Shown here piece after piece: positions 21,133 through 62,357 of a stretch of DNA of 64,000 nt (positions within the stretch are counted from its first letter, which is position 1; each line of letters starts with the position of its first letter). Both the position numbers and the translations under genes were made by a program. The notes under the pieces are model-generated. The model made no database searches and was not told where the DNA came from. It worked only from the letters and a program-made list of their open reading frames with translations. Source of the stretch: Thalassomonas sp. RHCl1 (GTDB lineage: Bacteria; Pseudomonadota; Gammaproteobacteria; Enterobacterales; Alteromonadaceae); NCBI RefSeq assembly GCF_947387555.1, contig NZ_CANDNZ010000006.1, positions 341,482 through 405,481 of the forward strand, in the 5' to 3' direction.

Positions 21133-21200
21133 TTTTGTTTTTTGGATGTTATTTAACCCTTAACTAAAGGAAAGTAGAAAAGTAGGAAAGTGAAGCTGTT

Positions 21201-42361: not shown

Positions 42362-42613
42362 TTATTCTTTTAGTGGAGCTACCAATGAAAAAGCCCTGGA
42401 TTCGTCCAGATATGCCTGTATCTGCTCAAGCTCGGGAACGTGCTTAAGCATCAGCAATATCAGGCTGGAATTCAGTCGTGCCGACTGCTCTTCGGTTAAG
42501 CCTTCATGGCTGGCAATCAAGCGGGCATAAACCTCGTCCCAGTCATGTGTTGCTTCATTGGCGGGGTTTTCATTGTTCATCACATTTTCATCCTGGTGCT
42601 TCATTTCAGGCAT
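42362..42613 (-). CDS. DUF2783-like small protein
   Basis: 83 residues; a conserved core DWDEVYARLIASHEGLTEEQSARLNSSLILLML resembles DUF2783, small proteins encoded beside FAD aromatic hydroxylases. The start overlaps the end of the monooxygenase gene by about 13 nt, so translational coupling is expected. It may be a partner or subunit of the monooxygenase. A later in-frame Met (MNNENPANEA) is an alternative start. Function unknown. Confidence 0.75.
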   Translation of the reverse strand: MPEMKHQDENVMNNENPANEATHDWDEVYARLIASHEGLTEEQSARLNSSLILLMLKHVPELEQIQAYLDESRAFSLVAPLKE

Positions 42614-44232: not shown

Positions 44233-44257
44233 TTTACTACTTCCATTTTAATGAAAC

Positions 44258-45283: not shown

Positions 45284-45529
45284 GTAATACTCCCTGTGTA
45301 ATGATAACTCTCGATGAAGTGAGCCAGAATTGATGATAGTGAAGCTGTTTTGTTACATCGTTGTTAACATTAGAAAAAACAATCGACCTGCAAACTTCAC
45401 AAGCTCTGTGGAAAAGACCATCACTCCAATAAATTCACGATAAAAATTTTAATTAATATCAAGATTCTAAAAAACAGTGTAAATTAGTTTAAAATGTTCT
45501 AAAAAATTGAATATAAAAAAGGAATTGAA

Positions 45530-46435
45530 ATGAGCAAAATGCCCATCACGATTGAAGCATTGCTTGTGATAGATGCCATAGACAGGCGACAAAGTTTTGC
45601 CAAAGCCGCGGAAGAAATGAACAAGGCGACGTCGGCTTTATCCTATATCATGCAAAAACTTGAAGAAAATCTTGGTATTACCTTGTTTGAACGCCAGGGG
45701 CGCCGCTCGGTGCTTACCGCCGCCGGTAAAGTGGTACTCGAAGAAGGACGGCAGATCCTCCAGGCCAGCAGCCAGCTGGTGGAAAAAGCCCGGGAAACCT
45801 CTACCGGCTGGGAAACCCATCTTAAAATCGCCATTGAATCTACCGGCAACTATAAGGTCTTTTTCACTGTCTTGCAGGACTTCCTTAAGGAGCATCCGAG
45901 CATAGAAGTTGAGGTCAATGAATGTGTGCTCAGCGGCGGTTGGGACGCCCTGGAGCATAACCAGATAGATCTGGTGGTCGGTGCCCCCGGACCTATTCCC
46001 CTGCTGAAAGGTTTCCGCTCTGTGCCTATGGCAAAAGCGGAAATGGTACCTGTGATTGCAGCACATCATGAATATGCCGAATTTGCCGAAGACGGTAAGT
46101 CTATGTTGGCGGTATTATCAAAAATCAGGCGTATCGTGATCCCCGACACTTCAAAATTGAATGTAACTCGTTCAGCTGGACTGACCAATGGTTACCAGAA
46201 GCTTTATGTACAGAATATGGATCAAAAAATGGCCGCCTTACGCGCCGGCTTAGGGGTCGGACACCTGCCGCGTAAACGTATCGTCGATGATCTGGCCAAG
46301 GGTACCTTGCTGGAATTAAAGCTGGATCCGGCCAATGATTTGGAAAGCTTCCTCGCCTGGAAAATCAGTAATAAAGGCAAGGCATTACGCGCGCTTACCC
46401 AGTTGCTGGAGCAGGCGGACTGGAGTGATGGCTGA
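45530..46435 (+). CDS. LysR-type regulator of the hppD operon
   Basis: 301 residues. HTH (about 8-65): ALLVIDAIDRRQSFAKAAEEMNKATSALSYIMQKLEENLG. Effector domain (about 90-295): LKIAIESTGNYKVFFTVLQDFLKEHPSIEVEV. Divergent from hppD across a 246-bp AT-rich region, the usual arrangement for LysR control of the adjacent catabolic operon. Confidence 0.92.
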   Translation: MSKMPITIEALLVIDAIDRRQSFAKAAEEMNKATSALSYIMQKLEENLGITLFERQGRRSVLTAAGKVVLEEGRQILQASSQLVEKARETSTGWETHLKIAIESTGNYKVFFTVLQDFLKEHPSIEVEVNECVLSGGWDALEHNQIDLVVGAPGPIPLLKGFRSVPMAKAEMVPVIAAHHEYAEFAEDGKSMLAVLSKIRRIVIPDTSKLNVTRSAGLTNGYQKLYVQNMDQKMAALRAGLGVGHLPRKRIVDDLAKGTLLELKLDPANDLESFLAWKISNKGKALRALTQLLEQADWSDG

Positions 46436-48118: not shown

Positions 48119-48599
48119 TTGATCTCTCCTCAGCTGAGCTGATTATGTATAAAACCAAATGGTTACGCACAACTCCATCCGGGCTGACCGCCATATCCGC
48201 CGTAACCGGGCACGGGAATATGCAACTTTATACTGATTGAAAAATTACCTGTGAAGTCTTTAGCCCCGGCATAAGGACTTCACTTACTCTAGTGTTACTA
48301 CAGGGTGAAATGTCTCACTCGGGGAGATAAAAAGTTACCGGCTCAACTTTTCCTATGGGAAAATCTGCTGAATCTTTAGGGAAAAATATAAAATTTCATC
48401 CGCTTAATGGCTCGGATATCTGCTGTGATTGCTTATGGCAGGCGAAAAAATTCTTTATCGGCTAACAAGGGAAGTTCATTTGATGAAATATCCCGTCCGA
48501 TATTTCAGGTTATGTCATCCGATATTTTCTAATAGATTTCACCGATTTCAAATGCTACTTTTTTGCCCGGATAAATACTCACAAATCAGGGAAAATGAA
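48119..48599. other. Intergenic region with one strong dyad
   Basis: 481 bp between divergent genes. It contains GTGAAGTCTTTA-gccccggca-TAAGGACTTCAC (48252-48284), a 12-bp inverted repeat with one G-T pair and no U-tract. The ORF upstream of the NmrA start (from 48429) has no protein-like content. Confidence 0.55.
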
Positions 48600-49472
48600 A
48601 TGAGCAATATTCTTATTATCGGTGCAGCAGGAGCTAATGGTCAGGCGACACTTAATGCTTTATTTGCTAAAGCGGATTTAACCGATCATATTATCGCCGG
48701 TGTGCGCAGCGAAGAAAAAGCCAAGGCGCTGAAAAATCTTTATCCGCAGCTGGAAACCCGGGTATTTGATATTGAGCGTGCCGATGAACTGAATTCAGCA
48801 ATGCAGGGAGTGGATAAGGTTTTCTATATTCCCGGCAACATAGAGCCGCGGGAGCTGCATGCCAAGGCCGTGATTGATGCCGCCCTGGCCCATGAAAGTG
48901 TCAAAGATTTTGTCTTTTATTCGGTATTCGGCGCTGAATATGAAGGGATCTTATTTGCCCGTCAATTCCGTTACGGCGAGAAATATCTGGAAGATAGCCG
49001 TTTGAACTGGACGCACCTGAGAACCATTTTCTTCCAGGATAACCTGCTGGGCTGGGCGGAAGACGTGAAAAACGGCACCTTACATTTAGGTACAGGCAAA
49101 GGCCGTTTTGCTCCTTTACTGGTACAAGACATAGGTGAAATTGCCGCCAACATCCTGACCAGCCAGGGGCATGCCGGTAAAGCCTATAATATTACCGGGC
49201 CTGAGCTGATTTCAGGGGGCGAGATTGCCGAAATCTTTGCTAATGAGCTGGGGAAAACCGTAAGCCACATCTCACCGGATAATGCCACGACCTTAAGCGC
49301 ATTGACCGACAGCGGCTGGCCGGAATGGCAGGCGAAAGGTATGGTGGAATTATTTAACGCCTTTGCCGATGACCAGGCGGCCATGGTAAGCCCTGACGGT
49401 GAACAGTTATTGGGACGTCCGTTAACACCGTTAAAAGCTTTTGTTAAAGCGAATAAAGCCAGCTTTAGCTAA
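48600..49472 (+). CDS. NmrA-family NAD(P)-binding oxidoreductase
   Basis: 290 residues from the ATG at 48600, selected because the upstream extension of 57 codons is not protein-like. Contains a Rossmann GxxGxxG in IIGAAGANGQATLNAL and PELISGGEIAEIFANELG. Resembles NmrA/QOR2-type atypical short-chain reductases that reduce quinones or enones with NADPH. It is 1.3 kb upstream of the AfsA-type gene, separated by repeats and an unknown gene on the opposite strand; a link to the cluster is only suggestive. Confidence 0.88.
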   Translation: MSNILIIGAAGANGQATLNALFAKADLTDHIIAGVRSEEKAKALKNLYPQLETRVFDIERADELNSAMQGVDKVFYIPGNIEPRELHAKAVIDAALAHESVKDFVFYSVFGAEYEGILFARQFRYGEKYLEDSRLNWTHLRTIFFQDNLLGWAEDVKNGTLHLGTGKGRFAPLLVQDIGEIAANILTSQGHAGKAYNITGPELISGGEIAEIFANELGKTVSHISPDNATTLSALTDSGWPEWQAKGMVELFNAFADDQAAMVSPDGEQLLGRPLTPLKAFVKANKASFS

Positions 49473-49493
49473 GCCTTGGTTTAGATAAGGGAA

Positions 49494-49650
49494 GTATATC
49501 GCCGCCTCTTTGCATCCTTGCGAGCACGGCATAGATACATCTTGTATATCGCTGCTCCTTCGCATCCCTGCGATCACGGCATAGATACATATTGTATATC
49601 GCCGTACCTTCGCATCCCTGCGAGCACGGCATACCATACATTCTGTACAT
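49494..49650. repeat. Three tandem 50-bp repeats
   Basis: Units start at 49494, 49544 and 49594 with exact 50-bp period: GTATATCGC, then a GC(C/T)(G/T)...CTTCGCATCCCTGCGA segment, then (G/T)CACGGCATA..ATACAT. The same motif, diverged and inverted, is at 7281-7426. No spacer variability, so it is not a CRISPR. Short ORF-like peptides across it are artefacts. Confidence 0.85.
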
Positions 49651-49685
49651 AAAAAAACAGCTATCCCCCTTAAGGGATAGCTGTT
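49651..49685 (-). terminator. Terminator of the 49727-50476 gene
   Basis: AACAGCTATCCC pairs with GGGATAGCTGTT; reading the minus strand, the hairpin is followed by a run of seven T, 42 bp beyond the gene's stop. Confidence 0.85.
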
Positions 49686-49726
49686 GCTTCATTGATTAAA
49701 CTTGGCTGTTAACCGCAAGAGCCAAC

Positions 49727-50476
49727 TTAGTTGATCGGGTAGTTAGGGAACGGGTTGTTGTAGTTAATGTCCGGTCTTTGCTCGGTGAACATAGAATTAA
49801 CGACCAGCTTGTCTATCATCCATTCGCCGGTTTCTGTGGCGATAACGCCTAAAGTATTGTTACTTAAAAACAGCTGAGGTCCCGGCGTTGGTTCGAACGG
49901 CAATTCGACATCTGTTGACTGGATAATTTCCTGGTGTACTAAGACGTTAAAGTTAAACTCCATGCGGCCGGTACCTGGCTTTTCGCCTGGCTCGTAGTGG
50001 CTGACATAGAAGGAAGTCGGCGAGAAAATCGCGTTCTGTCTTAACTGCGCCAAACCGTCGGTGGCGATGCTGATGGTAGACTCAACCCCGTAGGACAAGG
50101 CGCCGTTTAAATCCAGTTCAATATCCGGGCTGGTAATGTCGTAGAAACACTGGTTTACTTCGGCCATTCTTTCCATATTAAACTTCTGGTTGGAGGCTTC
50201 CGGGATACATAAAAAGAAGCGTCTGACAATCTGGCTGCCTTCAAAATAGGCGTGTTGCTTATTTAGGCTGGCGAGGAAAGTTTTGTTGCGCAGGGCACGG
50301 CGCAGCATTTTTTTACTGACATCGGTTTCTTCTAGGCCATAAGCGCCGTTAATTTCGTCCTGGTAGCCATAGTCATCATCATAATCATCGTTTGCCATGG
50401 CAACAGAAGTGGTTAAGGCAAAGCCTGTTAATAAGGTAAGCGCTTTAGTGATTTTGTTTTTCATTATAGTTTTCAT
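49727..50476 (-). CDS. Secreted acidic protein of unknown function
   Basis: 249 residues with a signal peptide (ALTLLTGFALTTSVAMA). It begins with the acidic DDYDDDYGYQDEING and has two cysteines that could form a disulfide (FFLCIPE, NQCFYDI). Repeated FxF/FNVLV strands suggest a beta domain. I do not recognise the family. It is divergent from the AfsA-type gene and shares its 290-bp intergenic region, which contains a perfect dyad (50569-50587). Confidence 0.7.
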   Translation of the reverse strand: MKTIMKNKITKALTLLTGFALTTSVAMANDDYDDDYGYQDEINGAYGLEETDVSKKMLRRALRNKTFLASLNKQHAYFEGSQIVRRFFLCIPEASNQKFNMERMAEVNQCFYDITSPDIELDLNGALSYGVESTISIATDGLAQLRQNAIFSPTSFYVSHYEPGEKPGTGRMEFNFNVLVHQEIIQSTDVELPFEPTPGPQLFLSNNTLGVIATETGEWMIDKLVVNSMFTEQRPDINYNNPFPNYPIN

Positions 50477-50568
50477 CGTCTTGTTTCCTTAGTTTTTAAT
50501 AAAGTTTTAAAAAGTTTGCTTTTATTTTTCGAGTTGTCGTTCGATGAGCAAACTATAAAAAGACCTTC

Positions 50569-50587
50569 TCTGAAATGGTATTTCAGA
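50569..50587. promoter_or_regulatory. Candidate operator of the AfsA-type cluster
   Basis: Perfect palindrome TCTGAAAT-GGT-ATTTCAGA between the divergent gene 49727-50476 and the AfsA-type gene at 50767. It is 180 bp upstream of the AfsA start and 93 bp upstream of the other start. Confidence 0.5.
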
Positions 50588-50766
50588 CTATTTCACAACC
50601 CTTCACTCTTTCTTTCACCATTGCCCTTTTACCGGAAATCTTGCGATAGCTTGCGTAATTAACCTGTCCCGGTTCATGCCTTAATCTGGGCTCCGTGTTC
50701 AAAACTAATTTTCACAACGAAAACTTTTTTAACTTTTTACTTATAAAGATTTGCAAGGAGCAAACC

Positions 50767-51516
50767 ATGACTACAGAAAATATGATTATTGTTGGCGACA
50801 AGTTCGAGTGTTTCGCAGAAAACGAGGGGGTATTAACGGCAAGTGAAGCTTTACATATATTAAAGCACCAGCTGTTAAGCGATAAAAAAATCCGTTTTAA
50901 ATTAGGCCAGGGGTTAAGTGAAGCCCAGGTCTCCCAGCTGGTTAAAACGGCCCAGGATGCCGGTTTAAGCAATTTATTAGAGTTTAATGAAACCGTTAAA
51001 TCAGGCCGCAATTATGTGCATAAACATCAGCAGCGTAACTCTATGTTGGGCTTGCCGCGCCGCATCTGTGAAAAGAAATTTGAACTGGATGTCATGCTTG
51101 ACGATGCCTGTGATGAGATGGGGGATCACGTTACCGGACACCACGTACAAGGCATGGTGATCACCGAAGCGGCGCGCCAGGCGTTCCTGACCATTACCGA
51201 GGCGTTTTTCCTTAAAGACAACGACTTCTCCAGTTATTTCGTTATCAACACCTTAAACAGCCAGTACACCAGTTTCATGTTCCCGGTGCCTGCAACCATA
51301 GAATATGAAATTGTTGAACATAAAGAGAAAAAAGCCGGTGCGCACTCCTTTGATGTGGTGATGAATGTGGTGCAAAACGGTGTTATCTGCTCTGTGGTCA
51401 CCACCAGCTTCAGTACCTATAACGCCGAGTGGCTGGAGAAAAAAGAAGCCGCGATGGCCTGCGATGCCATTAAATATGTCTTGAACAATGAGGGCGAGCA
51501 GAATGTGGCTGCATAA
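50767..51516 (+). CDS. AfsA-type A-factor biosynthesis hotdog protein
   Basis: 249 residues from the ATG at 50767 (AAGGAG upstream); 24 upstream codons are unused. The C-terminal hotdog region has VHKHQQR (84-90), then DHVTGHHVQGMVITEAARQA (residues 120-139), the Gly-Met-hydrophobic-x-EAARQ motif of AfsA-like domains. AfsA condenses a beta-keto acyl chain with dihydroxyacetone phosphate in Streptomyces gamma-butyrolactone synthesis. Typical AfsA proteins are longer (about 300 residues) with two hotdog repeats; here one is clear and the N-terminus is divergent. The stop overlaps the phosphatase start by 14 nt. A FabZ-like role is the alternative. Confidence 0.65.
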   Translation: MTTENMIIVGDKFECFAENEGVLTASEALHILKHQLLSDKKIRFKLGQGLSEAQVSQLVKTAQDAGLSNLLEFNETVKSGRNYVHKHQQRNSMLGLPRRICEKKFELDVMLDDACDEMGDHVTGHHVQGMVITEAARQAFLTITEAFFLKDNDFSSYFVINTLNSQYTSFMFPVPATIEYEIVEHKEKKAGAHSFDVVMNVVQNGVICSVVTTSFSTYNAEWLEKKEAAMACDAIKYVLNNEGEQNVAA

Positions 51517-52201
51517 CCTGGATACCAGCAAACCCTGCGCTTTTTTTGATGTCGACAATACCCTGATTTCCATTAAAAGCATGTTCAGTTTTTTAAATTA
51601 CCTGCAGCAGGAAACCAAGCTGATCCCGCAGCAGGTGATGGACGAGATGCAGGTGCAGCTTAAGCAGATGTTTGCCGCCAAAGAGCGCCGGGAAAACATC
51701 AATGCCCATTATTACCGGGTGTTTGCCGGGGTATCTGTGACTGAGCTCGCCGAGCTGGGACGCAAATGGTACCGGCAGGTGGCGGATAAGGCGGACTTTT
51801 TCCACCCCCATGCCCTGGCGAAGCTAAGGCAGCACCAGAGGGAGGGATACAACCTGGTGTTTGTGTCCGGCTCCGGCCTGGCCATGCTGCAGCCGTTGGC
51901 AGAGGCTTTGGGGGTGAATACCGTGTTATGCGCTCCCCAGGAGCAAATGGAAGGCCGTTATACCGGCAAGCTGGTTGACCAGCCCTGTATCGGTGAAGGC
52001 AAGGCCCATTATATCCGCCGTTATTTGCGGTTGTTTACCGATGTTGCCGCCAGCTCGGTGGCTTATGGCGACGATATCAGCGACTTCCCTATGTTAGCCA
52101 CGGTAGGCCGGGGATACCTGGTAAGTCCGGGCGAATTAACCCGGGCGGCGAACCAGGAGCAAGATTTTATCATTTTGGATATTGAACAGGAGGCGGCATA
52201 A
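51503..52201 (+). CDS. HAD-IB family phosphatase (SerB-like)
   Basis: 232 residues from the ATG at 51503, which overlaps the AfsA-type gene by 14 nt. HAD motifs: DxDxT with nucleophile D16 and acid D18 (FFDVDNTLI), motif II Ser in VFVSGSGLAML, motif III Lys in GKAHYIRR and motif IV GDDISDFPML. It hydrolyses small phosphomonoesters. Coupled to the AfsA-type gene, a natural role is dephosphorylating a butenolide- or furan-phosphate. I recall HAD phosphatases (MmfP) next to AfsA homologues in Streptomyces methylenomycin-furan clusters. Confidence 0.9.
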   Translation: MWLHNLDTSKPCAFFDVDNTLISIKSMFSFLNYLQQETKLIPQQVMDEMQVQLKQMFAAKERRENINAHYYRVFAGVSVTELAELGRKWYRQVADKADFFHPHALAKLRQHQREGYNLVFVSGSGLAMLQPLAEALGVNTVLCAPQEQMEGRYTGKLVDQPCIGEGKAHYIRRYLRLFTDVAASSVAYGDDISDFPMLATVGRGYLVSPGELTRAANQEQDFIILDIEQEAA

Positions 52202-52230
52202 ATAAAGGGCTGGAGCAGTGAGCTTGAAGC

Positions 52231-52364
52231 ATAAATTTAACCGCCCTGTACCACTAGTCAGTAGGCCGATAAATTTAACCGAGTAATATACCCCTCAACG
52301 CAGGAGTTCAGGGGCGGCTCGGCAAGCTAATGACCTGAGATGAGAGGTCAGGTTATCAGCTTGC
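52231..52364 (+). promoter_or_regulatory. Leader of the aldo/keto reductase gene: direct repeats and nested hairpin
   Basis: ATAAATTTAACCG occurs twice (52231-52243 and 52269-52281), 38 bp apart, like a tandem operator. Then GCAAGCT (52322-52328) pairs with AGCTTGC (52358-52364), with an inner TGACCT/AGGTCA stem. The structure sits about 80 nt before the reductase ATG and could be an attenuator or processing site. Confidence 0.45.
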
Positions 52365-52443
52365 TGAGCAGGAAAACGTAAGTTTGGAAGATTTAACATA
52401 AATAACGAGAAAATCACTTTTTAAATTAAACAAGGAAATTGTT

Positions 52444-53442
52444 ATGAGTAGAGTAATTGCAAATAAATCTGTCGCAGCCGTTGGTTTAGGTTGTATGGGC
52501 ATGAGTGAATTTTACGGTGACCGCAACGACACCGAATCGCTGAAAACGTTACATGCCGCGCTGGAAATGGGTTACAACCATTTTGATACTGCCGACATGT
52601 ACGGCCAGGGCCATAACGAAGAACTCGTGGGTCAGTTCGCCAAAGAGCTGGGTTCAAAACGCGATGACGTAGTGATTGCGTCCAAGTTCGGTATCCGCCG
52701 CGACCCTAATGACAAATACAACCTGATCATAGATAACAGCCGCGATTATGTCCGTGCTGCCTGTGAAGCGTCTTTAAAGCGCTTAAATGTTGAAGCCATT
52801 GATATTTATTACATGCACAGACGTAACGCGGATACGCCTATCGAAGAGCCGATGGAAGCTTTGGCGGAATTGGTTAAAGAAGGCAAAATCAAGGCTATCG
52901 GCCTGTCGGAAGTTTCGGTAGAAACCCTGAAACGCGCCCAGAAAGTTCACCATGTTGAAGCCCTGCAAAGTGAATATTCTTTATGGTCACGTGATATCGA
53001 GCAAAACATCTTGCCGGCCTGTAAAGAGTTAGGCACTAAGTTTGTTGCTTACAGCCCGTTAGGCCGTGGTTTCTTAACCGGTGGCATTACCCAGGCAGAT
53101 ATCCAAAAAGCCGACGTGAACAAAGACTTCCGCGCCAAACTGCCGCGTTTCCAGGACGAAAACATCGAGAAAAACCTGGAACTGGTGGCCAAAGTACAGG
53201 AAATCAGCAAAGGCCTGAACTGTACTCCGGCCCAGTTAGCCTTGGCCTGGTTGCTGGAGCAATACGACAACCTGCATGTTATTCCGGGTACCAAACGGGT
53301 GAAATACCTGGCGGACAACTTCGGCGCCCTCAATGTCGACCTGACGCCGGATATCGTGATGAACCTGAGCGGTATTTTTGCCAGTGAAAATATTCACGGC
53401 GCCCGTTACCCACAAGCCATTTTAGACGGCACTAACCTCTAA
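52444..53442 (+). CDS. Aldo/keto reductase (AKR13-like)
   Basis: 332 residues. (alpha/beta)8 barrel with the AKR tetrad: Asp in [10 protein letters not shown], Tyr in MYG, Lys in IASKFGI and His in YYMHRRN. The C-terminal ...[11 protein letters not shown] segment binds NADPH. It reduces aldehydes or ketones. Within the AfsA-type cluster a natural role is carbonyl reduction of the nascent product. A 242-bp gap with structured leader separates it from the phosphatase. Confidence 0.93.
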
Positions 53443-53478
53443 TCGTTATCTTAAGGTGATAACACGTTTTTAATCATG

Positions 53479-53503
53479 CCGGCTCTTGGAGCATAAGAGC
53501 CGG
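53479..53503 (+). promoter_or_regulatory. Intercistronic hairpin before the monooxygenase
   Basis: CCGGCTCTT-GGAGCAT-AAGAGCCGG, a 9-bp perfect stem between the reductase stop and the monooxygenase ATG, without a U-tract. Could be an RNA processing or stabiliser element. Confidence 0.4.
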
Positions 53504-53526
53504 ATCAGATAAAAGGTCTATTCATT

Positions 53527-55044
53527 ATGTTGCAGGAAATAGAGCAGGAAGTTCTTATCGTGGGCGGCGGGCCAACCGGCATGATCACCGCATTACAGTT
53601 ACACAGATTTGGTATTCCGTTTCGTATCATAGAGGTGCGCACGGAAAAATGCTCGGGTTCAAAAGCCCTGAGTGTTAACCCGGCGGCATTAGATATGCTG
53701 GCGGACTTAGGGATCACCGAGTCTTTATTGCCGCAGGGGCAAAAAAACCAGATAGTGAACCTGATGTATAACGACAAGCGCATGTTTAAACTGGACTTTA
53801 ACCGGATATCCGCCACGCATCCTTATTTTTTGATGCTACCCCAGCCGGTCACCGAAGCGGCCATTGAAAATCGCTTAAATGAACTGGGTTATGAAATTGA
53901 GCGCGGCACCGAACTGGTGAGTTTAGAGCAAAATGAACACGGCGCACAGGCGACCTGTAAAGGCGTAAACGGGGAAGACACCCGGCAATACCGTTATATC
54001 GTCGGCTGCGACGGCGCCAACAGTAAAACCCGGCAACAGGTAGGTTTGCCTTTTGACGGCTATAACTATGATCTGCACTTTATCCTGGCGGATGTGAAGG
54101 TCAAGTGGGACCGGGATTTAACGCAAAGTTATTATTACATCAAAGAGCAGGGTTTTATTATCGTGCTGCCGCTGATGGAAGGTTATCACAGGATAGTGAT
54201 CAAGGCCGACGGCAAGATCCCCGACAATTATCAACCGGGCCTGGAAGACTTTCAAGCCGCCATCGCCGCACTGGATGTGGATATAGAAATTTCCGAGCCC
54301 ACCTGGATGTCGGCTGCGCCGTTTTATAACCGCGCTACCTCGACTTTCCGCCGCGGCAATGTTTTTGTCGCCGGAGATGCCGCACACTTGTTCAGCCCTA
54401 TCGGCGGTTTTGGTATGAATACCGGTATCGGTGATGCTTTTAACTTGGGCTGGAAATTAGGTTATGTGATGAGCGGTGCCGGCTCTGACGCCTTGCTCGA
54501 CAGTTATGCACAAGAACGCCACTGGAATGCCGAGCAGTTGTTGAAATTAACAGATCTCAATACTTCGATGATCGCCGGTTTAGACCGTCACGGCGAGCAG
54601 GATGAAGCGAAATTTTTGCCTAAGGTTGCCAACCGCGACTTTATCAAGGCCTTCCCGCAAATTTCTGCCGGTTATAAACTCAATTACGCCAAACAGGCCC
54701 CGGACCCGCAGGAAAAATATCATGTCGGCGGCTTACTGTTAAGTTCGCAGTTTTTACCTTTTGCCAACGAGTTCCCGTTGGGCAACGGCAAACATAGTTT
54801 GATCGTCAGCAGCGAAATACCGGCTGAGCAGCTGGCTGAGTTAGAAGGCATTATGCAGTCTGCTTTTGGTGATTTCTTCCGGATCAACACTATCTGGGAT
54901 CCGCAGGCCTATATGCTGGATGCAGGGCAGTTTATCCTGGTGCGTCCCGATAATGTTATCGAATACGTCGGCACCACCAAAGACAGCGCCGCTTTTAACT
55001 GTGCTTTAAATGCCCTTTATCAAAAAATGGATGTTGCCGCATGA
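53527..55044 (+). CDS. FAD-dependent monooxygenase (class A, PheA/TfdB type)
   Basis: 505 residues. FAD-binding GxGxxG in LIVGGGPTGMITALQL, DG motif YIVGCDGANSKTRQQ and GD motif VFVAGDAAHLFSPIGGFGMN. A C-terminal domain (about 390-505) closes it. Uses NAD(P)H and O2 to hydroxylate or oxidise a ring. It overlaps the acyltransferase start by 4 nt (ATGA). Part of the AfsA-type cluster; a parallel FAD oxidoreductase accompanies AfsA homologues in methylenomycin-furan loci, to my recollection. Confidence 0.93.
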   Translation: MLQEIEQEVLIVGGGPTGMITALQLHRFGIPFRIIEVRTEKCSGSKALSVNPAALDMLADLGITESLLPQGQKNQIVNLMYNDKRMFKLDFNRISATHPYFLMLPQPVTEAAIENRLNELGYEIERGTELVSLEQNEHGAQATCKGVNGEDTRQYRYIVGCDGANSKTRQQVGLPFDGYNYDLHFILADVKVKWDRDLTQSYYYIKEQGFIIVLPLMEGYHRIVIKADGKIPDNYQPGLEDFQAAIAALDVDIEISEPTWMSAAPFYNRATSTFRRGNVFVAGDAAHLFSPIGGFGMNTGIGDAFNLGWKLGYVMSGAGSDALLDSYAQERHWNAEQLLKLTDLNTSMIAGLDRHGEQDEAKFLPKVANRDFIKAFPQISAGYKLNYAKQAPDPQEKYHVGGLLLSSQFLPFANEFPLGNGKHSLIVSSEIPAEQLAELEGIMQSAFGDFFRINTIWDPQAYMLDAGQFILVRPDNVIEYVGTTKDSAAFNCALNALYQKMDVAA

Positions 55045-56339
55045 CTACTACAAGCCTGATCCGTCCCCTGGGAGATATTGAAAGCCGCATGGCATTAATG
55101 CACGAGCTTTCGGGAAACTCGCAAACCACTTCTGTGGTGGATTTCGACGCCATACTGGATTTCGATTATTTGAAAGTGGCGGTTGAACTCTGGTTGCACA
55201 GCTATGAAATCTTGTCTACCCGGGTGGTGACTACCGGATCTGGCTTTGAATTACATGGTACTCAGCTTGCTGCCGGTGACATTTGCCGTCAGCTTGAATT
55301 AACCCGGGATTATGATTTACAGCAGGCGACCACCCTTTGCCTTAATACCGTGCTGGCGGCAGAAAAAACTGTGCTTTCTGTGGTATTGATGCAAGACAGC
55401 AGCGGGCAAAAAAGCCACCTGGCACTGACCTTTCATCACTCTATTGTTGACGGTTTATCTATTGCCACCCTGGTGGAGTCGTTACTGAACTATTACGTAC
55501 AGGTGACCCGCAGACAGGGGCGGCTGCAAGTGAATAAGCGTCCGGTGGGGCCCGAGCTGGAGCAGTTTATATCGCCGTTAACCCAGGTTTCTGAGCCAGA
55601 AGCACAGCCACCTGAGTCGTTAACGCCAAGTTGGCCGGTAGAAGAGATGGCTCCGGTAGCAAACCGGCAAACCGGTTACCTGGAAACCTGCTTCGATCAA
55701 AAGGTATTAGCGCCATTAAAGCAACTGGCGAAAGAGCAAGATTCAACCCTGAATACCTTGCTCACCTACGCCTTTTGCCGGTCGGTGGCCGGTTTGCAGC
55801 AAAAAAATGAAATTACCTGTTTAAGTGCGGTGTCTATGCGCAGTCGCTTGCAGGCGCCGATCAGTGAAGAAGAGATTGGCTGTTATATCCGGGTTTACCC
55901 CCATAAGATATCGGTCGCTTCCTCTTTAGCCGAGTTCGCCCCCGGCTATCGTCAGCAGCTCAGTAAAGGAATAAAGCTGCTGGCCAGGGATTTGGGCGAG
56001 TTAAACCTGGCGTTAATGCGCCAGGGGGCGAAAGGCCTGAATGATATCAGCGTGTTTTCTCATGATGTTGCCATGACCAATCATGGCCAATTGAATTTAA
56101 CGCAGCAATATGACGGCTTTAATATTGTCGGCTACCGCAATATGGCGAACCGTAATGGCGGCGTTTTTGCCATTGCCTTACACATTGCCAGTCTGGATCA
56201 AAAAATGAGTTGTGCGTTTAGTTATAGTACTCCGTTGTTAAGTACTCACACCGCCGAAGAAATTCAGGCTTTGTTTGAGCAAAATATTCAACGGATGCTG
56301 TTATCAGAACAGGGAGAGAAATATGAAAAGGCTATTTAA
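55041..56339 (+). CDS. Stand-alone condensation/PapA-type acyltransferase
   Basis: 432 residues. The chloramphenicol-acetyltransferase superfamily catalytic motif HHSIVDG (H132-H133 to D137-G138) is intact. The C-terminal half has VAMTNHGQLNL and CAFSYSTPLLSTHTAEEI, as in PapA or condensation enzymes. It acylates an alcohol or amine with an acyl thioester. No NRPS module is nearby, so it acts as a free-standing ester- or amide-forming enzyme. The start overlaps the monooxygenase; the stop overlaps the next gene by 17 nt. Confidence 0.9.
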   Translation: MTTTSLIRPLGDIESRMALMHELSGNSQTTSVVDFDAILDFDYLKVAVELWLHSYEILSTRVVTTGSGFELHGTQLAAGDICRQLELTRDYDLQQATTLCLNTVLAAEKTVLSVVLMQDSSGQKSHLALTFHHSIVDGLSIATLVESLLNYYVQVTRRQGRLQVNKRPVGPELEQFISPLTQVSEPEAQPPESLTPSWPVEEMAPVANRQTGYLETCFDQKVLAPLKQLAKEQDSTLNTLLTYAFCRSVAGLQQKNEITCLSAVSMRSRLQAPISEEEIGCYIRVYPHKISVASSLAEFAPGYRQQLSKGIKLLARDLGELNLALMRQGAKGLNDISVFSHDVAMTNHGQLNLTQQYDGFNIVGYRNMANRNGGVFAIALHIASLDQKMSCAFSYSTPLLSTHTAEEIQALFEQNIQRMLLSEQGEKYEKAI

Positions 56340-58137
56340 AACATTGCCTTCAGGTAACGTCAGTTATCTGGAAACCACAGGGACAGGACCAACATTACTA
56401 TTTGTGCACGGCAACTCATCATGCGCCGACGCTTTTCACCATCAACTGGAGCATTTAGGCAGCAGTTATCGCTGTCTTGCCCTGGACTTTCTTGGCCACG
56501 GCGAGTCATCACCGGCGAACAACGCCGGTGCCTACAGCTTTGCCGGTTGCAGCGAGCAGATCATTGAATTTATCGATGAGCTGCAGCTGGAAAACGTTAT
56601 CGTAGTGGGGCACAGCCTGGGCGGGCACGCCATCATAGACGCTTTGCCCCGCCTTGAGGGCATTGCCGGGGTATTGCTGGTGGGGGCGCCGCCTTTTAAC
56701 GCCGACAGTGCCGGAGATGCCTTTTTACCGGATCCGTCAGAAGGGTTAATTTTTGCCGCTGAACTTGACGGCGATGAGCTTACCAAAGTGGCAAAGGCGT
56801 TTGCCAATGAAGATAAGCTGGAGTTAAGTGATTGGATCCGTGTGGTTAAGTCGGTGGACAATACCCATAGCTCGGCACGGCCGGGCATACTGGCGGGCTT
56901 TAGCGAAGGCGAGTTGCAGGATGAAGTGAATATTTTGCAGCAATCCGGAGTTTGCGCCATGAGTATCGTCGGCGAGCAGGACGGTTTTATCAATAATGAC
57001 TATTTCAATAGTGAGCCGCTAAAAGCCATTTTTGGAGACAATGCCTTCTTTATTGATGACTGCCATCACTGTCCTCATCTTGAAGCACCGGAGGTTTTTA
57101 ATGGTTACCTGGAAGGTTTTATCAAACAGTGTTTCCCGAAAAAAATCACCCGCTCCCAGGTCTTAAACGAGCACAAAGACGGCGATATTTTTATTGACCG
57201 TTATATGCCGTTAGCCGAGCCGGGCGTTGGCGAGGTGATGATAGAAGTCAAGGCCACCAGCGTGAACCCCTTCGACTATAAGATCAGCCGCGGCGAGTTA
57301 CCCCATTTGGCTCCTGAGCATCCCGCGGTACTGCATTCTGATGTTGCCGGTGTGGTGATCCGGGTAGGGGAGCAGGTCAGCGAATTTAAACCGGGAGACA
57401 AAGTCTTTGGCTGCGCCGGCGGCGTGAAAGGCCGTCAGGGCGCCCTGACGGATGTGATGCTGGCGGATCAGCAATTGCTGGGTTTGATGCCAAAAAACCT
57501 GAGCTTTAAACAGGCGGCGGCTTTGCCTATGGGGGCGATCACCGCCTGGGAAGGCCTGGAAGCTGCCGGTTTACAAGCCGGTATGAAGGTACTGGTACAC
57601 GGCGGTACCGGCGGTGTCGGCCATATGGCGGTTCAGCTGGCAAAGCATATGGGGGCTGAGGTCTATGCCACCGTGGGCTCGGTGGAAAAAGGCAAGTTGG
57701 CCCTGAAAATGGGGGCCGACGGCATTATTCATTATCACACCGAAGATGTCGAAGAATATGTCAGCCGCATCACCGGCGGCTGCGGTTTTGACCTGGTGTT
57801 TGATACCGTAGGCAATGAGAATATTCCTGTTGCCATGCAGGCCTGTACGGTCGGCGGTCATGTGGTAACGACCCTGGCCAACAATAAGGTGGATTTAAAA
57901 ATTGCCTCGGGGCGGCGGTTAAACCTGCATTTTATCAATATGCTCTGGCCTATGTTATCCGGCAGGGAAACCGAGGCGCACGGCAAGATATTAAAGCAGC
58001 TGACCCCTTTGGTTGAAGCGGGCAAGTTAACGCCTTTACTGGACTCGCAAAGCTTTTTATTCGAGCAGGCGGGGCTCGCGCATGAATTTGCCGCTTCCGG
58101 GGAAGCAGTGGGCAAAGTGACCTTAGTCAACGGCTAA
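56323..58137 (+). CDS. Alpha/beta-hydrolase fused to quinone-oxidoreductase-type MDR
   Basis: 604 residues from the ATG at 56323 (GGGAGAG upstream; the extra 16 upstream codons are within the acyltransferase gene). Domain 1 (about 1-265): hydrolase with VHGNSS, nucleophile S98 in VVGHSLGGHA, GEQDGF and HCPHLEAPEVF. Domain 2 (about 280-604): MDR/NAD(P)H quinone oxidoreductase, KATSVNPFDYKI, HSDVAGVVIRVG and VHGGTGGVGHMAVQLAKHMG. The two domains are fully formed. The fusion suggests sequential hydrolysis and enone or quinone reduction. Family fusion rare as far as I know. Confidence 0.93.
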   Translation: MKRLFKTLPSGNVSYLETTGTGPTLLFVHGNSSCADAFHHQLEHLGSSYRCLALDFLGHGESSPANNAGAYSFAGCSEQIIEFIDELQLENVIVVGHSLGGHAIIDALPRLEGIAGVLLVGAPPFNADSAGDAFLPDPSEGLIFAAELDGDELTKVAKAFANEDKLELSDWIRVVKSVDNTHSSARPGILAGFSEGELQDEVNILQQSGVCAMSIVGEQDGFINNDYFNSEPLKAIFGDNAFFIDDCHHCPHLEAPEVFNGYLEGFIKQCFPKKITRSQVLNEHKDGDIFIDRYMPLAEPGVGEVMIEVKATSVNPFDYKISRGELPHLAPEHPAVLHSDVAGVVIRVGEQVSEFKPGDKVFGCAGGVKGRQGALTDVMLADQQLLGLMPKNLSFKQAAALPMGAITAWEGLEAAGLQAGMKVLVHGGTGGVGHMAVQLAKHMGAEVYATVGSVEKGKLALKMGADGIIHYHTEDVEEYVSRITGGCGFDLVFDTVGNENIPVAMQACTVGGHVVTTLANNKVDLKIASGRRLNLHFINMLWPMLSGRETEAHGKILKQLTPLVEAGKLTPLLDSQSFLFEQAGLAHEFAASGEAVGKVTLVNG

Positions 58138-58169
58138 GGTCAGGATAACAAAGCAGCAGGAAGCAAATC

Positions 58170-59102
58170 ATGACGTTATCGATTTCAAATTCATCACAGG
58201 CGCTGGTTGCCAATATCTGTGCATTTTTTCTCTGGTCGGCGGTGACCCTGATATTTAATGCCTTGTCTGGGATAGATAATTTGCAGGTACTGGCATTACG
58301 CATCCTGTTTTCCATGTTGTTCTGCGGTGTTTTGCTGGCCTTGACCCCCCAGGTGCGCCGCTCGGTGGTTCAGCTCAAGGGGCAGGAGTGGCGGTTATTG
58401 CTGTTAAGCAGCCTGTTGATTGCCAGCAACTGGTACCTGGTGATCTTCGCTATCAGCTTGAACCAGCTCAGCTCTGCCAGTTTAGGTTATTTTCTTGCAC
58501 CTATCCTCAGTGTCGCCCTGCTGAAGTGGCGGCAAAAAGAAAAGGTGACCGCGGTAGAATTTATTGCCATTGGCTTGTGTTTGCTGGGAGCGGCGGTGGT
58601 GATTCAGGCGCGTTATCTGAATTCGCTGCCCTGGATAGGTATCACCATTGCCGCCACTTTTGCCTGGTACAGTGTGCTTAAAAAAACCAGACCGATAGCG
58701 CCGCTGGTCACCCTGTCGGTGGAAACGGGTTTTGCCGCGATACCGGCGCTGCTGTTTATCGCCTTAGGGCTTCTTGGTTTAGGTGATAGTGGTTTAGGCA
58801 TTACCGGGCACAGTTATGATTTTACCGCCGGCCAGTGGGGCTTGATGCTGCTGCTGGGGGCGGTAACCACATTGCCGATTTTGCTTTATATCGGCAGCGT
58901 AGTGCATTTGTCGGCAACCACGGTTGGCTTGCTGCAATATTTAAATCCCACGCTGATGTTGTTGGTGGCAATCGGGATTTTTGGTGAAAAGGTGTCAGAC
59001 AGCGTGCTGGGGGGCTTCCTCATTCTCTGGTCGGGCATACTCGTTTACGCTATTTGTTCAGTATACGGAGTCGTTAATACCATAACGGCAAGGAGGAGTT
59101 GA
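58170..59102 (+). CDS. EamA/RarD-type DMT transporter
   Basis: 310 residues with about ten hydrophobic helices (two EamA repeats), e.g. FFLWSAVTLIFNALSG, LLLLSSLLIASNWYLV and the RarD-like IVFAISLNQLSSASLGYFLAP. The DMT superfamily exports metabolites or small molecules. Placed 33 bp after the fusion enzyme and 2 bp before the next gene, it is the likely exporter of the cluster product. Substrate unknown. Confidence 0.9.
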   Translation: MTLSISNSSQALVANICAFFLWSAVTLIFNALSGIDNLQVLALRILFSMLFCGVLLALTPQVRRSVVQLKGQEWRLLLLSSLLIASNWYLVIFAISLNQLSSASLGYFLAPILSVALLKWRQKEKVTAVEFIAIGLCLLGAAVVIQARYLNSLPWIGITIAATFAWYSVLKKTRPIAPLVTLSVETGFAAIPALLFIALGLLGLGDSGLGITGHSYDFTAGQWGLMLLLGAVTTLPILLYIGSVVHLSATTVGLLQYLNPTLMLLVAIGIFGEKVSDSVLGGFLILWSGILVYAICSVYGVVNTITARRS

Positions 59103-59103
59103 G

Positions 59104-60450
59104 ATGAAAAATGACTGGAATAAATATATCTATCCGGAAACTTTTCTTGGTTTTATCGACGCAAGCAGCCATCAAAATAACGGCGCGGAGTTAAATGCGT
59201 TGACCGAGAGCCGGGTAACCACTCTGGCGGATTTAAGCCAGCAGGCAAAATTTGACGGCAAGCTGATTGACGCCAGGTTATTGCAGGGTTTAAGCCATAA
59301 TGATCATGTGTGGGGAAAAATCTGCTATCAGCAATTACGGCAGTATTTCAATAAGGGGCAGCCGATTGGCCATCATCAGATATATGTGCTGATTAACCCC
59401 GAAGAAATGTCGGATTCCGCAGCCATTAACCGCTGCGCCGAATTATTGGAGCATTTTATCGGTACCGGTGAAGTCAGCATACGCTTACTGCTGAAAAACA
59501 CCTTTGAGCTGTGCCACAGCCAGCTGCTGAAAATTGTCAGGATGTGTGAATTGTCCGGGGTGCAAAGGATTTGTTTCGCCGATGATCATTCGCAGTTTTC
59601 ACCTGCCGGGGTGAAGCGCTTTTTGGCGGCATTAAACGCCACCAGCCATGCCAATGCCTTAACCTTTGAATGTGCCTTTGCCGGCGGCGGCGAGCATGCC
59701 AAGGAGAATGCGATCACGGCGATCACTTCGGGTATTAATTATATCCATGTGACCGCCAGCTATCTGGCGCAATCGGATCAGGCGCAGCCGGTGATTCAGT
59801 TGATGCAGGAATTTAGCAGCCATAATTTTGCTCTAAACAAAGAAGCGCTGCAGCAGTATATCCTGGTGTACCATCAGCAGGGCCTGGAAAACCCCTTGGC
59901 AATCACCTCAGGCCTGGCGCCGGTCACCTGCGAGCAAGTTACGCAAACGGCGGCCAACTCCGGCAATGCCAAGGAGCTGGCGGCGGCAGAGTTGACGGAT
60001 AAAATCGCCCTGCGTTTTGATGTCAGCGCCAATGACTGGCATGTCAGTATCCAGCTGCTCGCCAAAGGACAGGCGCAGGATCTCGGCGAGCGGGTGCATC
60101 ATTATGTGATGTTGTTGTTGGCCCGGGAATATTATCAGCAATATCAGCAGATGATGGCGCGTGACGGTGTGGTTGATCCTTTATTGGTGGGCTGGGTAGA
60201 GCGGGAAGCCCTGCACCAGATGATCGGGGATAACGAGGCCCAGTTTAACGTTAAATTATGCCGTGCCCGTAAGCATATAGTGACCGCTGCAGAAACGCTT
60301 GGCGTGATGGACTATCAGCCGTTATCGACCCGTCAGGGAGCGGTGCGTTTAAATTGCGGCAATGTCACTGTGGTACAAGGATCAAAAGTGGAATTTGAAA
60401 TGGAGAACTGGCATTTTGCCGAGGAGTATCCTCAGTTGAAACAGGCTTAA
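59104..60450 (+). CDS. Unknown protein, DRE-TIM (LeuA/HMGL)-like N-terminal half
   Basis: 448 residues. The N-terminal half (about 10-230) resembles a pyruvate-carboxylase/isopropylmalate-synthase TIM barrel: TFLGFIDASSHQ at the start and FECAFAGGGEHAKENAITAITSGINYIHV corresponding to the HnDlG/AvaNslaA region. The usual H-x-H metal ligands and catalytic Arg are not evident, so it may be catalytically altered. The C-terminal part (about 330-448) is a different, possibly wing-helix-like module (FNVKLCRARKHIVTAAETLG). Last gene of the cluster. Function unassigned. Confidence 0.75.
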   Translation: MKNDWNKYIYPETFLGFIDASSHQNNGAELNALTESRVTTLADLSQQAKFDGKLIDARLLQGLSHNDHVWGKICYQQLRQYFNKGQPIGHHQIYVLINPEEMSDSAAINRCAELLEHFIGTGEVSIRLLLKNTFELCHSQLLKIVRMCELSGVQRICFADDHSQFSPAGVKRFLAALNATSHANALTFECAFAGGGEHAKENAITAITSGINYIHVTASYLAQSDQAQPVIQLMQEFSSHNFALNKEALQQYILVYHQQGLENPLAITSGLAPVTCEQVTQTAANSGNAKELAAAELTDKIALRFDVSANDWHVSIQLLAKGQAQDLGERVHHYVMLLLAREYYQQYQQMMARDGVVDPLLVGWVEREALHQMIGDNEAQFNVKLCRARKHIVTAAETLGVMDYQPLSTRQGAVRLNCGNVTVVQGSKVEFEMENWHFAEEYPQLKQA

Positions 60451-60637: not shown

Positions 60638-60805
60638 ATGCGTGGTCATCATTCACACCAGAGATACGCTTCTTCATTCGCTATTCTTATATCCGTTGAT
60701 GGGAAAATTCAGCGATTGGCTGAGGATATTATCAATGCAGCATATGAGCGCGTGAGCCAAGCAGATGTTTTTTTAAATCGACTGTTGACTCTCAAGTGGC
60801 TTTAG
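60638..60805 (+). pseudogene. Short ORF, possible gene remnant
   Basis: 55 codons from ATG: MRGHHSHQRYASSFAILISV, then the helical AEDIINAAYERVSQADVFLNRLL, ending KWL. The composition is protein-like, but there is no RBS and no complete domain. It might be the tail of a decayed gene or a short real gene. Low support. Confidence 0.25.
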
Positions 60806-60855
60806 AGTCCATACTTGGCAACACAAAGCAGAGATTATACAAAAGAGGCGGCGCT

Positions 60856-61701
60856 ATGTTCCGGATCGGTGAATTCTCGAAAATAGCTCAAACGGCTATT
60901 TCACAGTTACGTTATTATGATCAAATCGGTCTTTTTCAGCCGGCATATACGGATGAGTCGACAGGCTATCGTTATTACAGCACTAAACAGTTGCCTGAAT
61001 TAAACCGTATCATAGCGCTAAAGGAGCTGGGAGTTTCACTGGAACAGATCAAAAAGATGGTTTTGGAAGCGGTATCTGCGCAGGAAATCCGTGGCATGCT
61101 AATGCTTCGAAAAGCCCAGGTTGAACAAACTGTTCAGGAAGAAATAAACCGGCTAAAAATTATAGAAGCGCGGTTGAAAGAAGTTGAGCAGCCAGAAAAC
61201 CTTATCGGTGAAGGCATTATCCTGAAAAGTATTTCTGCCCAGCCATTTTATTCAAGCCGTAAGGTGATGGCCAAGCTGTTCGATACCATCTATCTGGTGA
61301 CTGAAATGCGAGAGCATGTGCCGGCTATGCTCGGACAAGAGCAGCTTGGTCATCTCACCATCATTATACATGGCGATGCTTTTAGCATTGAAAATACGGA
61401 TGTTGAAGTGGGTTTTCCGCTGGAGAAAATGCCCGAAACGCCCCTGCTTCTCCCTGGTGGAGATGAAGTTAGCGCACGCATGCTTCAACAGGAAGAAAAA
61501 GTGATTTCCGCCATGCGAGTCGGCTCGTTTGAAAATGGTTATGAAAAATATGCGCAAATAGGCAGGTGGATTGAAAATAGTGATTTCCGGATATCCGGCC
61601 CTGCAAGAGAGGTGTTTATCAAGCCGCCATCGCCGGGTAACCCCGACGACTGTGTTTGCGAGATCCAGTTTCCGGTCACCCGGTCGACAGCCCTTGTTTG
61701 A
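60856..61701 (+). CDS. MerR-family regulator with GyrI-like effector domain (BmrR type)
   Basis: 281 residues from the ATG at 60856 (MFRIGEFSKIAQTAISQLRY); the longer ORF has 20 unrelated codons. Winged HTH (about 1-70): YYDQIGLFQPAYTDESTGYRYY. A coiled coil (about 85-125) follows, then a C-terminal effector domain (about 130-281) resembling BmrR/GyrI. BmrR-type regulators sense hydrophobic cations and activate efflux. The SRPBCC gene follows on the same strand. It may be unrelated to the cluster. Confidence 0.92.
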   Translation: MFRIGEFSKIAQTAISQLRYYDQIGLFQPAYTDESTGYRYYSTKQLPELNRIIALKELGVSLEQIKKMVLEAVSAQEIRGMLMLRKAQVEQTVQEEINRLKIIEARLKEVEQPENLIGEGIILKSISAQPFYSSRKVMAKLFDTIYLVTEMREHVPAMLGQEQLGHLTIIIHGDAFSIENTDVEVGFPLEKMPETPLLLPGGDEVSARMLQQEEKVISAMRVGSFENGYEKYAQIGRWIENSDFRISGPAREVFIKPPSPGNPDDCVCEIQFPVTRSTALV

Positions 61702-61813
61702 CGTTATTAGCGTATAAACGAAAAAATTCCCCATTTATTTTACCGCAAGGTCTTAGCTTTAAAGGTTCATATCTTCAAGGCCTAAGGATTCTTGTATCCA
61801 GAGAAAGCCAATG

Positions 61814-61828
61814 CACAACATTGTTGTG
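61814..61828. promoter_or_regulatory. Candidate operator upstream of the SRPBCC gene
   Basis: CACAACA-T-TGTTGTG, 15-bp dyad with 7-bp perfect arms, 31 bp before the ATG at 61860. MerR is an obvious candidate binder; not shown. Confidence 0.4.
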
Positions 61829-61859
61829 AAATGATGTCCCGTACTTGAGGAGAAAGAAA

Positions 61860-62357
61860 ATGCAGATAATTAACAAGATCAATATCAATGCCCCGGTTGA
61901 TACTTTGTGGAAAATCCTTGCCGATGATTATAACGATATATGCCAGTGGACCAGTGTGGTAAATAGCTCTACTGAAAATCCAGAACTTTCCCCCGGCGAA
62001 GGACGTGCCTGTGAACTACCCGACGGTGCGGTAGCAAAGGAGACCTTGACCAGAATGGATAAAGCACAGCATACCTTTAGCTATCAGGTGGAGTTGTCCG
62101 GCATGCCGTTTTTTGTAAGAAGCATGGAAAATACCTGGCGTGTTGAAAAATACGGCCAAAATCAATCACGTGTTACCTTTGAAATTCATGTGGCTTTATT
62201 GCCGGTATTTGCTCAGCTGATGGGGCCGCTGATGAAAAGTAAATTTAATAAGCTGGCGAGTGTCGTGTTTGAAGAACTTAAATTTTATGCTGAAACAGGA
62301 AAAGTGCATCCCCGCAAGCATGAGTTGTTGTCGGCTAATGTTGGCAGGGTTGCCTAA
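61860..62357 (+). CDS. SRPBCC/START-like hydrophobic-ligand protein
   Basis: 165 residues from the ATG at 61860 (GAGGAGAAAGAAA upstream). The SRPBCC fold (polyketide cyclase/dehydrase type) begins MQIINKININAPVDTLWKIL with ADDYNDICQW, and ends in the long helix FNKLASVVFEELKFYAETG. Members bind hydrophobic ligands; substrate unknown. Probably controlled by the upstream MerR. Confidence 0.88.
   Translation: MQIINKININAPVDTLWKILADDYNDICQWTSVVNSSTENPELSPGEGRACELPDGAVAKETLTRMDKAQHTFSYQVELSGMPFFVRSMENTWRVEKYGQNQSRVTFEIHVALLPVFAQLMGPLMKSKFNKLASVVFEELKFYAETGKVHPRKHELLSANVGRVA

Follow-up and report, generated by a model that had tools for sequence, protein, structure and literature searches.

Gene content of the locus

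A 64,000-nucleotide stretch of the genome of Thalassomonas sp. RHCl1 (contig NZ_CANDNZ010000006.1, positions 341,482 to 405,481; hereafter the window) carries a gene for an AfsA-family protein, followed on the same strand by genes for tailoring enzymes, an exporter and a probable regulator. Together with one divergent gene, they form a unit of nine genes (49727-60450). This set probably serves to produce and export a small molecule, signal-like or antibiotic-like and of a sort known mainly from Streptomyces, in a bacterium that is probably marine. Positions below are those of the window, and the features of the locus are as follows.

49727-50476, minus strand: predicted exported NTF2/SnoaL-like protein, divergent from afsA and belonging to the conserved unit
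50569-50595, plus strand: candidate operator, in which the palindrome TCTGAAAT-N3-ATTTCAGA (50569-50587) overlaps the direct repeat TATTTCA-N3-TATTTCA (50579-50595), with a 10-bp period
50767-51516, plus strand: candidate phosphorylated-butenolide synthase of the AfsA type (PF03756), with a single hotdog stretch and E134/R137 within EAARQ
51488-52201, plus strand: HAD-IB phosphatase (PF12710, 115 bits; TIGR01490, over its cut-off), with DVDNT and GDDISD motifs
52317-52369, no strand: inverted repeat with 22-nt arms in the gap between the HAD and aldo/keto reductase genes, seen in the sequence
52444-53442, plus strand: aldo/keto reductase (AKR; PF00248, 260 bits)
53527-55044, plus strand: class A flavin monooxygenase (FMO; PF01494, FAD_binding_3, 245 bits), with GGGPTG, GCDG and GDAAH motifs
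55041-56339, plus strand: stand-alone acyltransferase of the condensation/PapA superfamily (PF00668, 68.8 bits), with HHSIVDG
56275-58137 (internal ATG at 56323), plus strand: alpha/beta hydrolase (GHSLGG) fused in one frame to a PIG3-like zinc-type MDR, by Pfam and NCBIfam
58170-59102, plus strand: predicted EamA/RarD-like (DMT) exporter (PF00892; TIGR00688, 117 bits, under its cut-off of 130)
59104-60450, plus strand: probable cluster regulator, with a degenerate DRE-TIM barrel and an output domain, by sequence and structure model
48600-49472: nmrA (NmrA/NAD_binding_10), outside the shared unit
48501-48517, plus strand: doubtful second copy of the direct repeat, with one mismatch, upstream of nmrA and outside the shared unit

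The AfsA assignment, made in an earlier note from the sequence alone, is solid at the level of the protein family: the 50767-51516 product scores 47.5 bits against PF03756, whose curated cut-off is 24. It is the sole AfsA match in the 7.56-Mb genome, and the same search matched none of 14 control genomes. The hotdog stretch is single (residues 83-213). The classical A-factor-type synthase has two AfsA repeats, and a 353-aa frame of another genome of the order (G117) likewise holds two PF03756 stretches, unlike the window protein. A conserved Glu and Arg (E-x-x-R) are important in AfsA; E134 and R137 are invariant in all ten aligned sequences, the motif being ESARQ in Pseudoalteromonas.

The coupling of AfsA to a HAD phosphatase was confirmed, the afsA gene overlapping the phosphatase gene by 29 bp. 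Pfam and NCBIfam also agree with the places and families given before to the AKR, FMO, acyltransferase, hydrolase-MDR fusion and exporter. Gaps of 242 bp (HAD-AKR) and 84 bp (AKR-FMO) are followed by a compact run, in which FMO and acyltransferase overlap by 4 bp and acyltransferase and hydrolase-MDR by 17 bp, with gaps of 32 and 1 bp thereafter. The acyltransferase scores well under the cut-off of the PapA5 model; the HH and D of its HHxxxD motif are kept in 5/5 aligned proteins, while the following G is replaced by A in two Pseudomonas proteins. As claimed earlier, neither a polyketide synthase (PKS) nor a multidomain non-ribosomal peptide synthetase gene was found among the 20 window proteins scanned, a set that leaves out most genes of the first 36 kb. 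The exported NTF2-like gene, which lies inside the range of the earlier note, was missed there. Its product has a signal-like N-terminus by eye and a predicted fold of the NTF2/SnoaL-like kind; a sequence search of the PDB gave no match.

Conservation as a nine-gene unit

A scan for relatives found 127; the best 80 served as the loci for context counts and for searches with hidden Markov models (HMMs) built from the cluster genes. All nine families are present in six of the 80 loci, from Moritella sp. PE36, two Pseudoalteromonas rubra, Pseudoalteromonas sp., Pseudomonas fluvialis and a Pseudomonas metagenome-assembled genome. Moritella and the three Pseudoalteromonas loci keep the window's gene order, in which afsA and the exported gene diverge. 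The two Pseudomonas loci deviate in having one gene for the hydrolase and another for the MDR, and in the exported gene coming after the last gene. The acyltransferase, exporter, exported-protein and last-gene HMMs matched none of the remaining loci, while the FMO HMM matched 14 of the 80 and the hydrolase-MDR HMM nine. An AfsA tree of 82 rows, drawn from 78 of the 80 loci with four further rows, unites the AfsA proteins of the six loci and the three from the genus of the window in one clade (support 100/98).

Within the genus, the nine genes are present at 92-98% identity in the nearest relative, G002, against which their dN/dS is 0.02-0.15. AfsA was found by protein search in three of 59 genomes (the host itself, G002 and G003), and some AfsA in 14 of 394 genomes of the order; in G001, also of the genus, neither AfsA nor nmrA had a match. 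The G003 locus occupies the same site, with nmrA on one side and an Ada-like gene on the other. It keeps afsA and HAD (80% and 65%) and, at about 70%, the last gene, and has no copy of the exported gene. Its tailoring set differs, consisting of MFS, SDRs, a dienelactone-type hydrolase, a KASIII-like protein, another hydrolase and LysR, together with a monooxygenase and an AKR that are 33% and 47% alike to those of the window. Such a swap would be the expected look of a biosynthetic locus diversifying its product.

The shared unit of nine genes is thus real and conserved, and its recurrence in three other genera (with the order kept in two), together with the low dN/dS, makes it more than a chance assembly.

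Predicted pathway and comparison with known AfsA systems

We favour, with fair though not high confidence, the reading that the nine genes encode a self-regulated, exported pathway of the acyl-butenolide type, a variant of AfsA systems already known in Proteobacteria; a butenolide, a furan and other products would all be compatible with the sequence. AfsA would join dihydroxyacetone phosphate to a beta-ketoacyl thioester supplied by fatty-acid metabolism, giving a phosphorylated 2-acyl butenolide, which the HAD phosphatase would dephosphorylate. The AKR and the MDR domain might then reduce the acyl ketone and/or the ring alkene, the flavin monooxygenase would oxidise, the PapA-like enzyme acylate and the hydrolase trim the product, which the EamA protein would export. 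The exported NTF2-like protein would act last, by dehydration or binding.

The first steps are suggested by analogy. The AfsA-like phosphorylated-butenolide synthase (PBS) domain of gladiostatin biosynthesis joins 3-ketothioesters to dihydroxyacetone phosphate in vitro, and SabA, SabP (a phosphatase) and SabD (a ketoreductase) are needed for the SAB butenolides of Streptomyces, according to the account in PMC7756379; for AfsA, HAD and a reductase side by side, such a pathway is therefore the natural reading. The window shares with the Streptomyces SAB/SRB butenolide and A-factor systems the AfsA-family synthase and the logic of phosphatase and reductase (as summarised in PMC7756379), and differs from them in its single hotdog, its extra tailoring enzymes and the lack of an ArpA-like TetR gene. 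The PBS domain of Burkholderia gladioli is fused to a PKS (PMC7756379, in its description of gladiostatin), whereas the window AfsA stands alone without one. A fusion of the gladiostatin kind, a 1875-aa AMP-ligase/KS/ACP/AfsA protein resembling the PBS-terminated PKS, was seen in the genome G020, also of the family (L034, 4984-10611).

In 77 of the 80 loci, AfsA has a HAD-IB gene no more than 5 kb away, in 24 within 100 bp and in 72 on the same strand; none was found near AfsA in L080, L084 and L134. AfsA genes proved widespread in Proteobacteria in the scan, and a cluster in Ruegeria pomeroyi DSS-3 has already been studied (PMC7426152, in the parts dealing with that cluster), so that the surprise expressed earlier at an AfsA cluster in a Gram-negative bacterium was overstated. 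More commonly, in Proteobacteria and in certain Actinobacteria, AfsA and HAD are combined with two families without a name, C8 (53/80) and C9 (54/80). A thiolase, which would supply beta-ketoacyl-CoA, is also present in 20 of the 80 loci. C8 (about 205 aa) and C9 (about 280 aa) lie near AfsA across Proteobacteria and Streptomyces (L113, L122, L173 and about 50 other loci), and five C9 proteins, one of them from Streptomyces, are 49-60% identical to the DSS-3 protein. The C8 and C9 proteins that were tested reached the cut-off of no Pfam family, and C9 had no match in the PDB.

Two further Gram-negative systems are alike in part. In Chromobacterium subtsugae, AfsA adjoins HAD-IB in an operon up-regulated with quorum sensing, which continues with MarR and an OprM/HlyD/DHA2-MFS efflux set, as far as PMC12114271 describes it. 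The 'A-factor-like' cluster of Pseudomonas Ps664 also has an AfsA-like protein, a hydrolase and a transporter, and differs in having a P450 and MFS and, according to the description in PMC8719888, no reductase.

The cluster might instead make an antibiotic with self-immunity and no signal, in the manner of the killing cluster of DSS-3, the regulator serving only to match supply to need. We regard this as a real possibility, although short of probable. Tailoring genes outnumber what classical butyrolactone signals need. The DSS-3 cluster (around SPOA0342) has an AfsA of similar length, 34% identical over residues 1-234, with HAD-IB, AKR, an MFS transporter and dedicated regulators in a Gram-negative host. 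Transposon insertions in it abolished diffusible killing and in some cases also immunity, and afsA was required for killing and for most genes of the cluster to be transcribed, by the results given in PMC7426152 for these mutants. On the other hand, the DSS-3 locus also has a tautomerase and LysR regulators, and it has both C8 and C9, whose HMMs find no match in the window. Of the cluster HMMs, those of AfsA, HAD and AKR match the DSS-3 locus, but the other six (FMO, acyltransferase, hydrolase-MDR, EamA, regulator and exported protein) do not.

A direct repeat upstream of afsA

The sequence between the exported-protein gene and afsA (TCTGAAATGGTATTTCAGACTATTTCA) contains TATTTCA-N3-TATTTCA at 50579-50595, its one exact copy in the whole genome; in G002, the sole exact copy is at the same place. 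Genome sites with at most one mismatch number nine (eight with one mismatch) versus 12 for a reversed control, and thus there is no genome-wide enrichment. Upstream of afsA, the repeat has one mismatch in Moritella, zero and one in the two Pseudoalteromonas loci tested, and two in both Pseudomonas loci. When each of four loci was compared over its whole length in 250-bp segments, the lowest number of mismatches was reached a single time and was the same as upstream of afsA. In 77 of the 80 loci, which have enough DNA upstream of afsA for a survey, the site has 0-2 mismatches in 6/6 loci with the 59104-type gene and 3-7 in 71/71 without it. Since AfsA of the window is only 44-48% identical to those of Pseudoalteromonas and Pseudomonas, a mere lack of divergence time is unlikely to account for this. 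The repeat was not found in the HAD-AKR gaps (4-7 mismatches in the five tested).

A second conserved element, GAAATnTTnCGATAGCTTGCGTAATTAAC, lies nearer afsA (50635-50663 in the window; 9900-9928 in L070), with a variant in G003, and has a 10-bp repeat of TTGCG-like units. The one-mismatch copy of the TATTTCA repeat precedes nmrA in three genomes of the genus (the window, G002 and G003), and in the window it overlaps a dyad, TGAAATAT-N8-ATATTTCA, at 48484-48517. This dyad, whose shape we take to be LysR-like, could serve a LysR protein.

The last protein as a candidate regulator

The 59104-60450 product has no Pfam match; TIGR02146 (homocitrate synthase) gives an E-value of 3e-6, far under its cut-off. 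It consists of a homocitrate-synthase-like barrel (residues about 1-260) and an output domain (about 296-436). In structural comparison, the modelled N-terminal part has the DRE-TIM fold shared with homocitrate synthase and other DRE-TIM metallolyases, as the earlier note had suspected. Unlike these enzymes, the protein is fused to an output domain and lacks the metal-binding HxH: no His occurs at either position in 8/8 barrel sequences under both placements of the site, whereas the motif is kept in 3/3 HMGL-family enzymes found in the same genome. From the missing HxH, the output domain and the accompanying repeat, the protein is more likely a regulator than a biosynthetic enzyme.

Between the window and Pseudomonas or Pseudoalteromonas, the C-terminal part is 43-55% identical and the N-terminal part 20-28%. 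The output domain is otherwise found behind FHA or receiver domains in proteins of the order (L042-L069). No Pfam family was found for it in three FHA/receiver proteins tested, and to our knowledge no function of this domain in the FHA proteins has been described. In the structure model, its order of strands and helices would fit a winged helix.

On this basis we propose, tentatively but as quite possible, that the metal-less barrel is the ligand sensor of a winged-helix regulator for AfsA-made butenolides in Gram-negatives, which would replace the TetR-type receptor of Streptomyces (or join one in Pseudomonas) and represent a new class of one-component receptor. The barrel would sense the product or an intermediate of the pathway, and the C-terminal domain would bind the direct repeats, of 10-bp period, in the region from which the promoters of afsA and the exported gene diverge, so that the pathway would control itself. 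We know of no other instance of such a barrel-sensor architecture, and a literature search for it found no paper. A scan of 20 window proteins, among them the products of every gene of 48429-60450 and the flanking regulators, gave no member of the TetR family; the nearest TetR-like frame detected in the window (21186-21785) is 29 kb away.

Several observations weigh against the self-regulated pathway favoured above and this proposal for its sensor. The winged-helix reading depends on the model topology and a weak profile match: against an OmpR/SARP-type winged helix, the output domain scores 21.0 (at most 17.7 in 40 shuffles) with an hhalign probability of 7% over 20 columns. PDB sequence searches with the regulator profile and with the output domain gave no match, and no winged-helix entry is among the 50 matches listed in each of two structural searches, both of which are dominated by the barrel. 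In 6/8 sequences, a His (H198 in the window protein) is placed within a few residues of the HxH site. The six repeat-bearing loci are one clade and hence not six independent events, and the repeat consensus was taken from the window and Pseudoalteromonas, leaving only Moritella and Pseudomonas as partly independent tests. G003 has the regulator and no good repeat upstream of afsA (three mismatches, 144/1000 shuffles). The Pseudomonas loci carry the repeat on the opposite strand, with a third unit of looser fit 10 bp further along. They also have a TetR-family gene (PF00440) immediately upstream of afsA (L071, 7995-8618; L075, 9127-9750), a place where the remaining loci with the cluster have none. 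There the repeat may belong to the TetR protein, and a TetR-type receptor is possible for that branch; this gene slightly lowered our confidence in both the pathway as a whole and the barrel as its sensor. Finally, the HAD-AKR gap with its hairpin makes several transcripts possible.

The repeat could be the site of another regulator, of TetR, LysR or MarR type, or a conserved promoter element, which we consider possible but doubtful. The adjoining TetR gene in both Pseudomonas loci, the dyad upstream of nmrA, the second element nearer afsA and the state of G003 are in its favour; but nothing corresponds to the Pseudomonas TetR in the Moritella locus, and its matches in Pseudoalteromonas are only marginal and far from afsA, and the 71 loci without a 59104-type gene have no repeat upstream of afsA. 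It is unlikely that the last protein is a working DRE-TIM enzyme, an aldolase or of Claisen type, with the C-terminal domain only a protein-contact module. The clear fold, the nearby His and the output domain of FHA proteins, which has no function known to us, would suit such an enzyme, whereas the lost HxH, the better conservation of the C-terminal part and the tracking of the repeat with the gene argue for the regulator. That the genes are mere neighbours, with AfsA-HAD in one pathway and the 52444-60450 genes in another, is very improbable: the 242- and 84-bp gaps and the other tailoring genes beside afsA-HAD in G003 would allow it, but the nine families recur together in six loci of three other genera, four of the families being absent from the rest of the 80, and the G003 replacement set (FMO, AKR, SDRs, hydrolases, KASIII-like, MFS) is of like kind and retains the regulator.

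Flanking genes

The NmrA reductase does lie upstream, as noted before, but its inclusion in the pathway was rejected: nmrA has no match in L070-L075, the six loci with the cluster, and does not adjoin the cluster in L022. MerR and polyketide-cyclase-like genes (60796-62357) were likewise rejected as cluster parts, being present in G002 and unmatched in the Moritella and G003 loci. Farther upstream, at 42601-46435, a gene pair for a flavin monooxygenase and an HPPD-N-like glyoxalase adjoins a LysR gene, which is kept at the same place in G002 and G003 and is not in the AfsA unit.

Significance

No paper on this cluster was found among open-licence PMC papers. Work on proteobacterial AfsA is thin in the literature that we found, comprising the Ruegeria killing phenotype, the Chromobacterium expression study, a Pseudomonas genome-mining note and the PKS-fused PBS domains of Burkholderia. 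The new part here is the regulator with a metal-less barrel and a matching repeat. With a candidate receptor and operator in one compact unit of nine genes, both the molecule and its sensing are open to testing in environmental strains. If the barrel is indeed the receptor, it would add a new sensor architecture and provide a handle for finding the ligand.

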